A stretch of 64,000 bases of DNA from Methylocystis sp. ATCC 49242 (GTDB taxonomy: Bacteria > Pseudomonadota > Alphaproteobacteria > Rhizobiales > Beijerinckiaceae), in assembly GCF_000188155.2 (NCBI RefSeq), contig NZ_KE124774.1:2238356-2302355 (forward strand), given 5' to 3'. The notes beneath the pieces were generated by a model, which did no database searches, was not told the DNA's origin, and worked only from the letters and a program-made list of their open reading frames with translations. This document shows, one piece after another, positions 6,163 to 38,488 of the stretch. The stretch's first letter is position 1; every line of letters begins with the position of its first letter. The translations under genes and the position numbers were made by a program.

Positions 6163-6768
6163 ATGACGCTTTTTCGCGATGTGCGGGCGATGTCGCCGCT
6201 GTTGGGTTTTTCGCTCCTTCTGCTTGCGCCGGCCATCGCGGTCCGTTCCGGCGCCCTGTCGTTCGACCTTCGTTTTGAAGCTTTGCTGATCGTTTCAGCC
6301 CTTTGCATTGGCGCTTACGTGCTCGCGGGCTTCTCCTCCTCGGAGCTCGGGCTGAGCACGCCATGGATCGCCCGTCACTGGGTCGGGGGAACCGCGCTTA
6401 CCCTCGTCCTTGCCCTCGCGATCCTGCTGGAAGCGAATCTCGTCGCCGACCACAAGCCGCAGCCCGACTGGGCGGCCTTCGCCCCTTTTTATGTGCTCGT
6501 GTCGAGTCCCTGTCAGGAAGTCGTCTGCCGCGCCATTCCAAAACTGATCGCGGATCGCGCGCAAATGAGCGGGCGAAACTATGTTCTTTTTTCAGCGGCG
6601 GTTTTTTCGCTGATGCACTTCGCCTACGGCGATTCGCTGTTGCTGCTGAACACGTTCTTCGCCGGATTGGCCTGGGCGGCGGCCTATCTTGTCACGCGGA
6701 ACATCTGGCCGCTCGTGGCCTCGCACGCCGCCATCGGCACGCTCGCCTTCTGGCTCGGCGTCGCATGA
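6163..6768 (+). CDS. CPBP (CAAX protease/bacteriocin-processing) family membrane protein with variant motif
   Basis: About 201 residues with six or more membrane helices. The CPBP family (Rce1/ABI type intramembrane metalloproteases) has an EExxxR motif and two later histidines. Here the first motif reads QEVVCR (residues 118-123), so the first glutamate is glutamine; H152 in SLMHFAYGD and H188 in ASHAAIG occupy the other motif positions. Activity may therefore be altered or absent. A TTG at 6127 with an AAGGA upstream would give a 12-residue longer product; ATG 6163 is preferred for its match to the family start. Substrate unknown. Confidence 0.75.
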   Translation: MTLFRDVRAMSPLLGFSLLLLAPAIAVRSGALSFDLRFEALLIVSALCIGAYVLAGFSSSELGLSTPWIARHWVGGTALTLVLALAILLEANLVADHKPQPDWAAFAPFYVLVSSPCQEVVCRAIPKLIADRAQMSGRNYVLFSAAVFSLMHFAYGDSLLLLNTFFAGLAWAAAYLVTRNIWPLVASHAAIGTLAFWLGVA

Positions 6769-6777
6769 GCCGGCGCG

Positions 6778-7470
6778 TCACGCGGCGGCGCGCGGTCCGG
6801 CGAGAATGGCCGTGCGAAGCAGAAGCCAGAGGACGACGGCGTTCAGAACATGCCAGACGAAATGGACGCCGGGCGGAAAGGCGGCGCAAATGTCGCGATC
6901 GATCGTCCGGAAGACGAGAGAAACAAGGAACACGAAAGCCGCCCCCGTGAGACTCGCCGCCGCCCGGTGGCGACGCATGATTTCAGCCCGATCGCTCCCG
7001 CCCGCCCTCCAGAGCAGAGCCGCGAAAACCGCCAGCGCCGCTAGCGCCGGCAGATAACCGGCAGAGCCGTTCAATCCCTTTATTGACGCGTCGACCCAAT
7101 AGGAGCCCAGGGCGAAGAGGAGCGTGATCCCGACCGCCACAGTCGTTTCGAGGCCGAACATCCGGCGCAGGGTCAGCAGAAAATAACCATAGATGAATAG
7201 CGAGATCGGGATGACGTCGAGCAGCATGGCCCCGCGCGTCGCAACCGTATGGAAAATGAAGCTTCCGACGCCCACGACGGCCGTGGCCAGTATCAGCGCG
7301 AGCGCGGGGTAATCGGCCTGCTCCTGCCGGCGCCAGAGGGTCAAGGCCGCCGTCGCCGCCAAAAGGAATGCGGCATTCGACAGCGCATTGAGCTGCTCCG
7401 CCCAGAAAGCGCCGCTCTGGCGCTCGCAATAGTCGATGACAGGTTCGCGCCAGTCCATGAGCGCCAGCAT
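6778..7470 (-). CDS. Ceramidase-like (CREST superfamily) integral membrane hydrolase
   Basis: A 230-residue protein with about seven membrane helices. Motifs match the alkaline ceramidase family: DYCE near the start (13-16), ALSNAAFLL, GSFIFHT with H74, MLLDVIPI with D85, and HFVWHVLN with H203 and H207; these would bind zinc. Eukaryotic members cleave ceramide; in bacteria substrates are mostly unknown and could be other amide-linked lipids. It converges with the CPBP gene (9 bases apart), so the two are not co-transcribed. An internal ATG (M5) is an alternative start. Confidence 0.8.
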   Translation of the reverse strand: MLALMDWREPVIDYCERQSGAFWAEQLNALSNAAFLLAATAALTLWRRQEQADYPALALILATAVVGVGSFIFHTVATRGAMLLDVIPISLFIYGYFLLTLRRMFGLETTVAVGITLLFALGSYWVDASIKGLNGSAGYLPALAALAVFAALLWRAGGSDRAEIMRRHRAAASLTGAAFVFLVSLVFRTIDRDICAAFPPGVHFVWHVLNAVVLWLLLRTAILAGPRAAA

Positions 7471-7551
7471 GCGGCCGGATTGCTACGATCGCGCGACGCC
7501 GCGTTGAAGAAAAAACGGCGGAGTCGAATGGCGCCGGGACAAGGCGCGGGA

Positions 7552-10500
7552 TCAGCTCGCCAGCGCGAATTTCTCCGCCTGCTCCAGATCGACCGAGACG
7601 AGTTGCGAAATCCCGCGCTCGGCCTGCGTCACGCCGAACAGCCGATCCATTCGCGCCATGGTGATCGGATTATGGGTGATGGTCACGAAGCGCGTGTCGG
7701 TCTTCTTGCGCATCTCTTCGAGAAGGTCGCAGAAGCGTTCGACGTTCGAATCGTCGAGCGGCGCGTCCACCTCGTCCAGCACGCAGATCGGCGACGGGTT
7801 GGTGAGGAACACCGCGAAGATCAGCGACATGGCCGTCAGCGCCTGCTCTCCGCCCGAAAGCAGCGTCATCGTCTGCGGCTTCTTGCCCGGCGGGCGGGCG
7901 AGAATGTCGAGGCCGGCCTCCAGCGGATCGTCGCTTTCCACGAGCTGCAATTCCGCTGAGCCGCCGTCGAAGAGCAGCGTGAACAGCTCCTTGAAATGCG
8001 CATTGACCTTGTCGAAGGCGGCGAGGAGCCGTTCGCGGCCTTCCTTGTTGAGGCTCGCGATCGCGGAGCGCAGTTTCTTGATCGCCTCGTTGAGGTCGTC
8101 GCGCTCGGACATCATCTTCTCGCGCTGCGCCTCGATCTCGGTGAGTTCGTCCTCGGCGCGCAGATTCACGGCGCCGAGCCGCTCGCGATCGCCGCGCAAT
8201 TCTTCGAGACGCTTCTCGATTTCAGCGATCTCGGGGAGTTCGTCCCCCTCCCTGATCCCTGCGAGTTCAGCCAGCGCGGCCGGCGTCGATTCGAGGTCGT
8301 GGGCGATGGCGCGCTCGACATCGGCGGCGCGCTGTCTGGCGGCTTCCAGCTGCGCCTCGCTTCGCGCCTTTTCCTCGCGGGCGGCGCTCATCGCGTCGAG
8401 CGCGGCGCGGGCGGCGCGATCGGATTCGGCAAGCCGCGTCTCGGCGGCGGCGCGGGCGTCCGAGGCGGAGCGGCGAGCGGCCTCGGCCTCCTCCAGCGCA
8501 TTCATCAGCGCGCGGCGCTGTTGCACGAAGGCGTCGGGCGACTCGGCGAGGCGCTCCTGCTCCTCGCGCGCCGATTCGAGGCGCTCCTCCAGTTCGCCGA
8601 TCCGGTCCTGCGCGCGGTCGCGGCGCTCGGCCCACGAGGCGATCTCGCGGGTGATGGCGGCGACGCGCGAGGCGCGGGCGTTGACCTCGTGGCGCAGGGC
8701 CGCGAGAGCCGCGCGGGCTTCCCCGGCCTGCGCGCGTTCGACCATGGCCCGGCTGCGCAGGCTCTCCAGCGCGCCGGCGAGAGAAGCCGGCTCTTCGAGC
8801 GCGTCCAGCGAGGCGGCGAGACTGTCGCGCTTCTGCACGGCCTCGTCACGATTGGCGAGAGTCTGCGCCTTGGCCTCCTCCAGAGCGGAGAGGCGCTGGC
8901 CGATCTGCGCCTGACGGCGCTCGGCGGCGCTGTGGCGCTCGCGCGCCTCCTCGAGCCGGACGCGGGCGCGGCGCTGCGCGTCACGCGCCTGGGCGTCGGC
9001 CATCGCGGCGAGGCGCGTGGCCTCGCGGGCGGCCTCGAGCTCCTCGGAGAGCGCATCCGCCTGCGCGCGGGCAAGCTCCGCTTCGGCGCGCAAATCTTCG
9101 AGGCGATTCTTTTCGACGAGGCGGCGGGCCGCGGCGGTCGGCGCCTCGGCGGCCTGAGTGAATCCGTCCCAGCGCCACAGATCGCCTTCCCTGGAGACGA
9201 GCCGCTGGCCGGGCTTCAGCAGTTTGCGCAGACTTTCGCCCTCGCCCCGCAGCACGACCCCGATCTGGGCGAGACGGCGGCGCAGCGCGGCCGGGGCCTG
9301 AACCATCTCCCCGAGCGGGCGCACGCCGCTGGGCAGGGCCGGATCGCCGGCGTCCGAGGTGAGCGCCCAATGGGCCGGCGCGGAAGTCTCCGCCGAGGCG
9401 TCAAGATCGTCGCCGAGCGCGGCGCCGAGCGCGGTCTCGTAACCTTTCTCGACCGTCACGCTCTCGACGACGGGAGCCCAAAGGCCGCCCGAACCCGACT
9501 GCAGGAGATTTTCGAGCGTGCGGACCTCCGTTTCGAGCCGCTGCGCCCGCAACGTCGCCTGCTCCATGGGCTGGCGCGCGGCGGACTCGGCCTCGCGCGC
9601 GTCGCGCTGGGCCTCCTCCGCCATCTGCGCGGTCTCGTCCGCGGCCCGCGCCTCCTCGACCGCCATCTCGAAAGCTTCGGCGAGGCGGGCCGCTTCTTCG
9701 GCGCCGCCGCCCTGCCCCGCGATGAGCGCGAATTCCGTATCGAGCCGGGTCAGTTCGGCCTCGAAGCGGGCGACGCGCTGATTCTCGTCACGCAGCGCAG
9801 TTTCGATCGCCGCGCGTCTGGCGTTGACGCCGGCGAGCTGTTCCTGGGCGTCGCCGAGCGCGGCCTCCGTTTCGGCGAGCGCCGACTCGATTTCGGCGAG
9901 GCGCTCGCGAGCTTCCTGCTCGCGGCCCCCATCCTGCGAATCGGCGCCGATGAGCTCCTCGCGCTCATCCTCGAGCCGCTGCGCGACCTGCGCCGCGTCC
10001 TCGATCAGCGCACGCTCGCGCTCGAGATCGCGCGCGAACTGCTCGATATGGCGGGTGAGTTCGGTGACGCGGTCTCTGGCGCGCTGCTCGTCCGCCTCCA
10101 GCGCCTGGCGCGCGGCGACGAGACGATGCACGGCGGCGCCGGCCTCGGCCTCCCTCTCGCGCAAGGCCGGCAGTTCATGGGCGGCGATCGCCTGGAATTT
10201 CGCGGCCTCAGCCTGCTCGAGCGTGCGGGCCTGAACATTGCGCAGATCGGCCTCGAGCTTCTGGGCCGCGTCGCGCAGCTGGTCGGTCGCGATCTGATAG
10301 GAGACGAGAGCGGCGAGCGCCTCGTTCTGACGGATTTTCGCTGCGAGGTCGCGGTAGCGCGAGGCCTGCCGCGCCTGGCGCTTCAGACTGTCGGACTGAC
10401 TTTCGACCTGTTTCAGCACGTCTTCCAGACGCGTGAGATTTTCCGAGGCGGCGTTGAGGCGCAGCTCCGCCTCGTGCCGGCGGGAATGGAGGCCCGCGAC

Positions 10501-36660: not shown

Positions 36661-37227
36661 ATGGAGCAGATCAAACGCCGGCTGAAGCGCGCTTTCTGGA
36701 TCGCCGTCGCGCTCATCTTCCTGCTCGAAAGCTGGCTTTGGGACCATGTGAGGGAATGGCTGCGCGCGCTGGAACGCGCGCTCGGCATGGAGCGTATGGA
36801 ACCCTGGCTGCGCGACCTCGTCGCGCGAATGTCGCCGCCCGCAACGCTCGCGCTGTTCGCAATTCCGGCGCTGGCGGTCTTTCCCCTTAAATTACTGGCG
36901 GTGGCGGTTGTCGCCAGCGGCCATGTCGTGAGCGGGGTGATCGCGATATTTATCGCCAAGACTCTGGCGCTCGGCGTTACATCCTTTCTTTTCGACATCT
37001 GCCGCGACAAGCTGCTCGAAATGCAGTGGTTCGGACGCTTCTATTCGCTGGTGCTCGATGCGCGCGCCTGGGCGAGCGCGCTGGTTGCGCCGCTGAGGGC
37101 GCAGATCCACGAGTTGACGAGGGAGGTCCGGACGCAGTTCGCCACGATCATCGGCCCCGAAAGCGGCAATTTGCGACGACGGCTCGCGCGGCTGCGCGAA
37201 CTCGCGCGCCCAAAACGCTCGGCCTGA
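36661..37227 (+). CDS. Membrane protein of unknown function
   Basis: 188 residues. One N-terminal helix (RAFWIAVALIFLLESWLWDH), a charged segment, then two helices (TLALFAIPALAVFPLKLLAV and GHVVSGVIAIFIAKTLALGV), then a charged helical tail ending in arginines. Related uncharacterised proteins occur in Rhizobiales. AGGA 7 bases before ATG 36661. The stop lies 6 bases from the convergent micropeptide gene. Confidence 0.75.
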   Translation: MEQIKRRLKRAFWIAVALIFLLESWLWDHVREWLRALERALGMERMEPWLRDLVARMSPPATLALFAIPALAVFPLKLLAVAVVASGHVVSGVIAIFIAKTLALGVTSFLFDICRDKLLEMQWFGRFYSLVLDARAWASALVAPLRAQIHELTREVRTQFATIIGPESGNLRRRLARLRELARPKRSA

Positions 37228-37233
37228 CGCCGG

Positions 37234-37362
37234 TCACTCGCAGATCGCATATCCGAAACAGAAATCATCCGCGGCCGACGGCGACGTATTGAAAATCGTC
37301 GCCGCGCTCGCGACGCCTGCGGCGAATAAGACGATAAATAAAGATATGGCCGCCTTACGCAT
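37234..37362 (-). CDS. Micropeptide A: 42-residue precursor with DFCxGYAIC tail
   Basis: A 42-residue frame: signal peptide MRKAAISLFIVLFAAGVASA (1-20) and a 22-residue mature part ending DDFCFGYAICE. A run of six G with 6 bases to the ATG may serve as ribosome binding site. The last residues match those of the next frame upstream (37537-37689), with synonymous changes in six codons, which argues that both are translated. The two cysteines, five residues apart, could form a disulfide or be modified. No known family; copper-chelating methanobactin precursors have a different core. Confidence 0.6.
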   Translation of the reverse strand: MRKAAISLFIVLFAAGVASAATIFNTSPSAADDFCFGYAICE

Positions 37363-37536
37363 GTGAGCCCCCCAAAAAATCTTGCGCGGCGAATGCATCG
37401 CTCGCCGATTGAAATGAACGGTGAAGGGCGGAGGAGCCGGGTTGCTTTTCTTGGAGCAAGATCTCAGTCTTCGAGCCTTCTTCCTATTAACGCTAACCGG
37501 CCGCCCGCGTTCCGTTAAATTTTGTGGATGACGCAA

Positions 37537-37689
37537 CTAGCGGCATATTGCGTAACCGGCGCAAAAATCACTCTTTTCCATGTGGACGGCCGCGAGGCGA
37601 TAGCCTCCGGCGGCCGCGCCGACGAGAAGAAATGCGCAAATAGCCAGCATTGCGATCCGTGCTGTGTGGCGTATCGCCGAAATCTCCAT
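37537..37689 (-). CDS. Micropeptide B: 50-residue precursor with DFCxGYAIC tail
   Basis: A 50-residue frame with a very good ribosome binding site (GGGAGG, 5 bases before the ATG at 37689). Residues 8-30 (HTARIAMLAICAFLLVGAAA) are a membrane anchor or uncleaved signal; the exported tail is GGYRLAAVHMEKSDFCAGYA followed by ICR. It shares D-F-C-x-G-Y-A-I-C with micropeptide A 174 bases downstream. Outside the hydrophobic segment and this tail the two differ in sequence, so they look like old paralogues. Function unknown. Confidence 0.65.
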   Translation of the reverse strand: MEISAIRHTARIAMLAICAFLLVGAAAGGYRLAAVHMEKSDFCAGYAICR

Positions 37690-37836
37690 CTCCGCCTCCC
37701 CTCCAACGAGAAACAAGATGAAATTAACCATCCGCGCAGCCGGACGGCGTGCGCCAGCGCTCATTTCGGAAGAGGGGCGGAGGGGAAAACGGTCCGCGAG
37801 ACGCCGCGGGAAAATCAATAAAAATCGGACCGATTG

Positions 37837-37872
37837 AAAAAGCGGCCCTCTCTCCGCAACCGGGGAGAGGGC
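37837..37872 (-). terminator. Intrinsic terminator after the YkuD lipoprotein gene
   Basis: GCCCTCTCTCC (37845-37855) pairs over 11 positions with GGGGAGAGGGC (37862-37872); the minus strand then runs CGCTTTTT. A member of the CCCTCCCC-type palindrome group. Confidence 0.7.
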
Positions 37873-37882
37873 GCGAGAAGCG

Positions 37883-38488
37883 TCAGATCACCACGACCTT
37901 GGTGCCGACCTTGACGCGATTGTAGAGGTCGATGGCGTCGATGTCGCGCATACGGATGCAGCCCGAGGAAACGCCCTGGCCGATCTTCTCCGGCTCATTG
38001 GTGCCGTGGATGCGGTACAGCGTGTCCTTGCCGTCCTGATAGAGATAAAGCGCGCGCGAGCCGAGCGGATTGTCCGGCCCGCCCGGGAGGCCGCCGGCGT
38101 CCGCCGTCGGCTGAAGATGAGGCCAGCGCTCCAGCATGTCCTTGGGCGGAATCCAGCGCGGCCACTCCTGCATCGCGCCGACATAGGCGCGGCCGGTCCA
38201 GCCCATGGCGTCCTGGCCCGTCGCGACGCCGTAGCGCACGGCCTTTCCGCCCGGCATGACGTAATAGAGGAAGTGGTGACGCGAATCGACGACGATGGAG
38301 CCGACGGGTTCGCTCGTCTTGTAATCGACCAGATAACGCTCGAACTCCGAACCGATCTGAGCCTGGGGCGCAAGCGCCATGAATTCGGCGTCGCGGCCGG
38401 AGAGCTTGGGATCCGGCAACCGCGTGCCGTTACAAGCCGAAAGCGCGACTGCAGAGAGAGTCGCAGCAAGCAATAGCCTCAAATTCAT
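37883..38488 (-). CDS. L,D-transpeptidase (YkuD domain) lipoprotein
   Basis: 201 residues. Lipobox ALSAC with lipidated C19, then the YkuD domain: GSIVVDSRHHFLYYVMPGGK, WPRWIPPKDMLERWPHL, GTNEPEKIGQGVSSGCIRMR with H161 and C177. Makes 3-3 crosslinks or attaches proteins to peptidoglycan in the periplasm. GGGGGA upstream of ATG 38488. The second L,D-transpeptidase-type fold in the window, unrelated in arrangement to the DUF2778 protein. Confidence 0.95.
   Translation of the reverse strand: MNLRLLLAATLSAVALSACNGTRLPDPKLSGRDAEFMALAPQAQIGSEFERYLVDYKTSEPVGSIVVDSRHHFLYYVMPGGKAVRYGVATGQDAMGWTGRAYVGAMQEWPRWIPPKDMLERWPHLQPTADAGGLPGGPDNPLGSRALYLYQDGKDTLYRIHGTNEPEKIGQGVSSGCIRMRDIDAIDLYNRVKVGTKVVVI

Follow-up and report, generated by a model that had tools for sequence, protein, structure and literature searches.

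The window analysed here, the whole 64,000-nucleotide stretch of Methylocystis sp. ATCC 49242 DNA on contig C6 of genome G000, carries two short neighboring genes on its minus strand that encode peptides with a common C-terminal tail. Frame A (37234..37362) encodes an A-type peptide of 42 residues, in which a Sec-type signal segment running to ASA is followed by 22 residues that end in DDFCFGYAICE, and frame B (37537..37689) encodes a B-type peptide of 50 residues with a hydrophobic export or anchor segment and the tail SDFCAGYAICR. Both frames lie where the preliminary description of this DNA had placed them, and the GGGAGG ribosome binding site that it reported 5 nt 5' of the ATG of B is present. 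Read from the window, the tail codons are GAT TTC TGT TTC GGA TAT GCG ATC TGC in A and GAT TTT TGC GCC GGT TAC GCA ATA TGC in B, such that, as described earlier, six of the eight shared residues (F, the first C, G, Y, A, and I) are encoded by different synonymous codons and only the D and the second C are encoded identically. A gene for a 188-aa membrane protein (36661..37227, plus strand), a neighbor common to the sister genus as well, converges on A. Upstream of B lies a gene for a YkuD L,D-transpeptidase with a lipobox (37883..38488, minus strand; PF03734, E 1.7e-23), which is the conserved upstream neighbor in Methylocystis, and a terminator-like hairpin 3' of this gene, read from the sequence as the inverted repeat CCCTCTCC/GGAGAGAGGG followed by TTTTT (37837..37871, minus strand), stands between YkuD and B.

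Comparison across the genus shows that the shared tail exceeds chance. Searches with full-length A returned 38 matches at E <= 1e-3 in 39 Methylocystis genomes, all 38 of which carry the tail, and at least one tail peptide of any type is present in 33 of the 39. With the A and B of the window as queries, none was found in G001, G004, G014, G016, G021, and G034; the completeness of G021 is 73% and that of G034 81%, and among these six genomes only G004 was seen in the family profile search. Outside the genus, strong matches (E <= 1.3e-6) in a family sample of 199 genomes were confined to eight genomes of g42, the remaining matches having E >= 0.006; the peptides of g42, probably the genus Methylosinus, closely resemble P0118 of Methylosinus sp. 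H3A. Sets of 397 order-level and 385 class-level genomes, both including G000, yielded no convincing match except G000 itself, with at most 18 candidates scored per genome. When 47 loci from the weak family-, order-, and class-level matches were scanned for the tail, one string appeared, in a 22-residue open frame of G301 (L118); among four further weak places, G308 has NDFCMGYALC in a 16-residue open frame and the rest have nothing like the full tail. The strings in G301 and G308 come without the N-terminal part and are taken as chance. When 84,980 named genomes were searched for the pattern D[FPA]C[FYL]GYA[IV]C of the tail, 27 stretches came up, of which 23 were confirmed, in genomes titled Methylocystis or, less precisely, as metagenome-assembled genomes of Methylocystaceae, Hyphomicrobiales, or Alphaproteobacteria. 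Homologues, which the preliminary description proposed to seek in Hyphomicrobiales, exist in Methylocystis and one sister genus and were not found in Hyphomicrobiales at large.

In the protein database, 190 relatives were found at E <= 0.01, and the 120 listed and examined all have the tail; names given to the listed relatives are hypothetical or uncharacterized protein, with the exception of P0114, named "Na+/pantothenate symporter". A plasmid collection held no match to P0049 or P0006. Pfam, NCBIfam, and PHROGs gave nothing convincing, most weak hits with residues shown sitting on the hydrophobic segment, and PDB sequence searches gave chance matches only. A description of the family was likewise not found in the literature searched, a scope that mostly excludes subscription papers. 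These results agree with the earlier statement that no described family has this tail, and the protein family looks new by its sequence. A and B belong to a genuine family of methanotroph peptides, probably exported, that has had no name so far.

The family tail is D-x-C-x-G-Y-A-[ILVM]-C followed, as a rule, by one residue. All of the best 120 of the 190 database relatives end in D-x-C-x-G-Y-A-[ILM]-C plus exactly one residue, which among these 120 is E in 67, Q in 29, R in 16, K in five, and N in three; the position after the first cysteine is F in 86, Y in 19, L in 13, and Q and H in one each. Alanine at this position occurs in the B of the window and in none of the 120 listed relatives. Valine before the last cysteine is also found (G017, G018, and G037), and six residues instead of one follow the tail in G013, G023, G036, and G037.

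Selection was assessed on one locus per genome from 32 of the 39 genus genomes; the gene in G015 and the additional ones in G011 and G038 were left out, and some frames entered the set up to 24 nt short owing to the rule by which starts were chosen. In this set and in the upstream set drawn in the same way, A-type was assigned by a final E or a longer extension, and the rule that A ends in E is therefore partly circular. For the 31 distinct A genes, pooled pN/pS is 0.029 over the nine tail codons and 0.546 over the N-terminal part, and for the 22 B genes it is 0.143 and 0.476; the tail values are biased downward because the gene-extraction regular expression fixed six tail residues, so that independent support comes from the whole-length search, in which no tail-less relative occurs among the 38. 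The tail codons are under strong purifying selection, which, together with homologues in 33 of 39 genomes, upholds the proposal that A and B are paralogues under selection at the protein level. Tail-less relatives and broken frames, which the preliminary description had set against its own reading, were not seen apart from one decayed B gene, and the observation is correct and stronger than first put. That decayed gene, in G022 (L072, minus strand near 8030-8390), has the tail SFGYALRR, in which both cysteines are lost, and an unrecognisable N-terminal part, next to an intact A.

A feature absent from the preliminary description is that A and B are preceded by two different conserved elements. 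A promoter-like element, GGAAC-N16-CGTT, lies before A at 37489..37513 on the minus strand, and in 27 of 32 genomes GGAAC-N16/17-CGTT stands upstream of A at a distance of 105-151 bp from the start; 200 dinucleotide-preserving shuffles produced it 0.17 times on average and never more than 2 times. The 16-17 nt spacer between the boxes varies by species, giving 25 distinct elements with their flanks. The A genes without the element are those of G013, G023, G036, G037, and G028, and none of the 22 B genes has it; the 32 A and 22 B genes, being drawn from related genomes, are not independent of one another. For EcfG, the sigma factor of the general stress response in Alphaproteobacteria, the accessible part of one study gives the consensus GGAAC-N17-20-GTT (PMC6599016). 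The element before A fits this consensus and looks like a general stress (EcfG) promoter, A having the conserved upstream GGAAC-N16/17-CGTT type of promoter by which a member of the EcfG regulon is recognised. Four of the genomes without the element, G013, G023, G036, and G037, form a divergent clade with a single gene, whose tail runs on into a short extension (CDQAPSR or the like); their assemblies, two of the four being incomplete, show no PmoA or MNIO match.

The element before B is a palindrome. In the window it reads GAGCG-CTGG-CGCAC (37749..37762, minus strand), with one mismatch to GTGCG-N4-CGCAC, and this consensus is found exactly before 20 of 22 B genes and within one mismatch before all 22, at 79-89 bp from the homologous start, the point from which B distances were measured and which in the B of the window is not an ATG. 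Exact palindromes numbered 0.02 on average and at most 1 in 200 shuffles, and none precedes A (0/32). A CCTWA box follows 26-27 nt past the palindrome centre in 20 of the 22 B genes, and the B of the window is without it. In the sister genus the palindrome stands 88-90 bp upstream, exact at two of seven loci, with one mismatch at four, and not found at one. Activators of CRP/FNR-like geometry bind a site near -41 of the transcription start. The spacing from palindrome to CCTWA would place the palindrome near -41 (about 40 bp) of the predicted transcription start, and the palindrome may accordingly be read, by its geometry, as a candidate site for an activator of this kind. Within the window alone neither the EcfG-type element nor the palindrome exceeds chance, so the support for both is comparative; each has 14 occurrences in the 610,016 bases of 19 loci, counted on both strands with the peptide-gene copies included. 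Neither element was found upstream of the C-type paralogues described below (L067, L068, and L077), of the G015 gene, or of either G140 copy.

The surroundings of the genes were compared at 31 loci, 19 of which are A/B loci from different Methylocystis genomes, with neighbors mostly identified only by similarity to window genes. The synteny with YkuD and the 188-aa protein, proposed earlier as a check, held in large part. YkuD lies upstream of the peptides at 16 of the 19 A/B loci (the exceptions being G013, G023, and G036), and the 188-aa gene is tail to tail with A at 18 of 19, 15 by the main comparison and G013, G023, and G036 by a further one, the remaining locus, G031, being at a contig edge. 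In the sister genus the 188-aa neighbor is present at all five of the loci L164-L168 and not in G140, and no YkuD relative was found beside the peptide gene at the sister-genus loci. On its other side, L164 has an integrase gene, with ORFs of similar length in L166-L168. In the peptide-negative genomes G004 and G014, other genes occupy the place beside the 188-aa gene. A plausible history is that a palindrome-driven gene beside the 188-aa gene was ancestral and that a tandem duplicate in Methylocystis gained a stress promoter.

Two further settings stand apart. In G140 (L170:3817-5460) the gene for a variant tail, DWCYGYAICR, stands between an OmpA-like barrel gene and an NADH dehydrogenase II-like gene, upstream of the latter. 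In G015 (L069:3033-8150) the tail peptide gene is upstream of a glutamate synthase-like gene and genes for a YgaP-like membrane protein, a DUF2282 protein, and an MNIO enzyme.

Substrates of signal peptidase I have a positively charged N-terminus, a hydrophobic core, and small residues at -3 and -1. The A of the window begins MRK, and the A-type proteins have ASA or AGA in 60 of the 64 sequences of alignment A5 and ASG in the other four, the rest of the segment drifting. Read as sequences, they match these features of a Sec-exported peptide processed by signal peptidase I, and predicted cleavage after ASA, AGA, or ASG leaves 20-23 residues, mostly 21 or 22. In other species, B-type peptides show AHA, AKA, or the like ahead of the tail as a possible cleavage site; the B of the window is without an AxA site and may stay membrane-anchored. 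AlphaFold predicts an N-terminal helix and a low-confidence tail (mean pLDDT 73.0 and 67.3).

The reading preferred here, to which we give about an even chance (0.5), is that type II methanotrophs have a lineage-specific family of small exported envelope peptides with a disulphide-loop tail and that A and B are paralogous genes within it, A serving as an effector of the stress regulon and B standing under another regulator. The N-terminal hydrophobic segment would take the peptide through Sec; in the A-type it would probably be removed after ASA, leaving mostly 21-22 residues, and in the B-type it may remain as an anchor. The tail, D-x-C-x-G-Y-A-[ILVM]-C-x, would then lie outside the cytoplasm, where a disulphide loop is the simplest expectation for two cysteines with five residues between them, and this loop would present G-Y-A to a putative partner. 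An EcfG-type general stress sigma factor would turn on A, and a different regulator acting at GTGCG-N4-CGCAC would turn on B. For A, a likeness exists to small secreted or envelope proteins of Alphaproteobacteria under EcfG control, as entry 1442 of Sphingomonas melonis, "Predicted small secreted protein", is listed with a putative EcfG site (GGAAC...CATT) in the accessible part of PMC6599016; by that description the two are alike in being small, apparently secreted, and preceded by a putative EcfG site, whereas the DxCxGYAxC tail and the companion gene B were found only in these methanotrophs. Small ORF-encoded polypeptides reported to modulate efflux pump specificity in Methylomonas sp. DH-1 (PMC10355033) are likewise small methanotroph proteins, of another genus and compared by description only.

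Four other explanations were weighed. A role for the peptides as secreted signals, or as small regulatory subunits in signaling proteins, with C-type paralogues working with an adjacent class III cyclase, is an unlikely proposal, suggested by the short peptide with its fixed C-terminus and by the position of the C-type paralogues of M. silviterrae (L067 and L068) and G038 (L077), which adjoin membrane cyclase ORFs. A C-type gene stands just upstream of such an ORF in M. silviterrae L067 (30 bp gap; region 6465-8168), as it does before the corresponding ORF of G038 (L077:6465-8100), and a second, looser case is found in L068 (7959-10066). These are, however, three loci in two genomes only, the L067 cyclase, the one cyclase ORF scanned, has a modest Pfam match (Guanylate_cyc, E 2.7e-5), the L068 cyclase is split in two ORFs, and no cyclase was seen beside A or B in the compared loci, where neighbors are mostly known by similarity to window genes. 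The contigs of L067, L077, and L068 also carry MNIO genes about 22-31 kb away.

Modification by an MNIO enzyme, the tail being a ribosomal peptide core with its cysteines altered to give a bufferin-like metal-binding peptide, is also unlikely. The Sec-type leader and short length would suit such a precursor, MNIO genes occur in 33 of the 39 genus genomes, and [DE]xC[FY]G in the tail resembles the EKC[FY]G of DUF2282 proteins of the same genus; bufferins, the DUF2282/MNIO-modified Sec-exported peptides described in the accessible part of PMC12452194, share with the tail peptides a cysteine that follows an acidic residue and precedes an aromatic residue and glycine. The tail peptides differ from them in that their two cysteines lie at the extreme C-terminus, MNIO does not consistently accompany them, and there is no profile similarity: hhalign against two DUF2282 sequences gave a probability of 6.6, and Pfam scans of P0001, P0002, and the members of alignments A5 and A6 returned no DUF2282. 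The close linkage to a DUF2282-MNIO cluster in G015 is the only such case seen, whereas G036 and G037 (98-99% complete) have the peptide with no MNIO match, and G001, G004, G014, and G016 have MNIO with no peptide found. DUF2282 was not found in G000, and the sole MNIO match there is about 240 kb from A and B, behind a small Cys/His-rich ORF of its own. Dependence on MNIO is not supported, since the peptides match no DUF2282 or precursor profile and an MNIO gene is not always found even in the same genome. The MNIO gene of G000 (L178:2397-3092, contig C6), the only one found, follows a small, exported-looking Cys/His/Lys-rich ORF that is possibly its own precursor.

A small hydrophobic toxin of a type I toxin-antitoxin pair, or a membrane-active stress peptide, would have the size, hydrophobic segment, stress-type promoter element, and tandem copies seen here, but it is the C-terminal tail and not the hydrophobic segment that is most conserved, and no family match was found, which leaves this explanation improbable. 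Least probable is an accessory transmembrane helix of pMMO, such as the unidentified helix of the Methylocystis Rockwell structure named for PDB 4PHZ in the accessible part of PMC8098663, since, although all peptide-bearing genomes fall in two pMMO-containing genera and that helix too is a single one of no assigned identity from the same genus, PmoA occurs with no peptide found in G001, G004, G014, G016, and G034 (81% complete) and with no peptide match in the g40 genomes G160, G203, G215, and G227, the peptide occurs with no PmoA match in G013, G015, G020, G023, G027, G036, and G037 (all drafts of 60-210 contigs), the element before A is of the stress type, and the PDB library, which holds no chains of unknown residues, gave no sequence match. 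An obligatory pMMO subunit is not supported, the peptide not being present wherever the lineage has pMMO (G001, G004, G014, G016, and G034).

Returning to exported envelope peptides as the preferred reading, a wider and speculative version, which we consider unlikely, would make DxCxGYAxC an exported peptide module of type II methanotrophs whose two-cysteine loop serves several envelope signaling proteins as their ligand or small regulatory subunit, with the general stress response controlling one copy, a separate regulator with CRP/FNR-like site geometry controlling another, and further copies placed beside a membrane cyclase or an NADH dehydrogenase of their own. Methanotrophs form an important biological sink for methane, and few of their small proteins have been charted. 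With its strict tail, its two separately wired copies, and its range across two sister genera, the family offers a tangible way into the stress physiology of methanotrophs, and from the promoter elements it can be predicted under which conditions each copy would be expressed.
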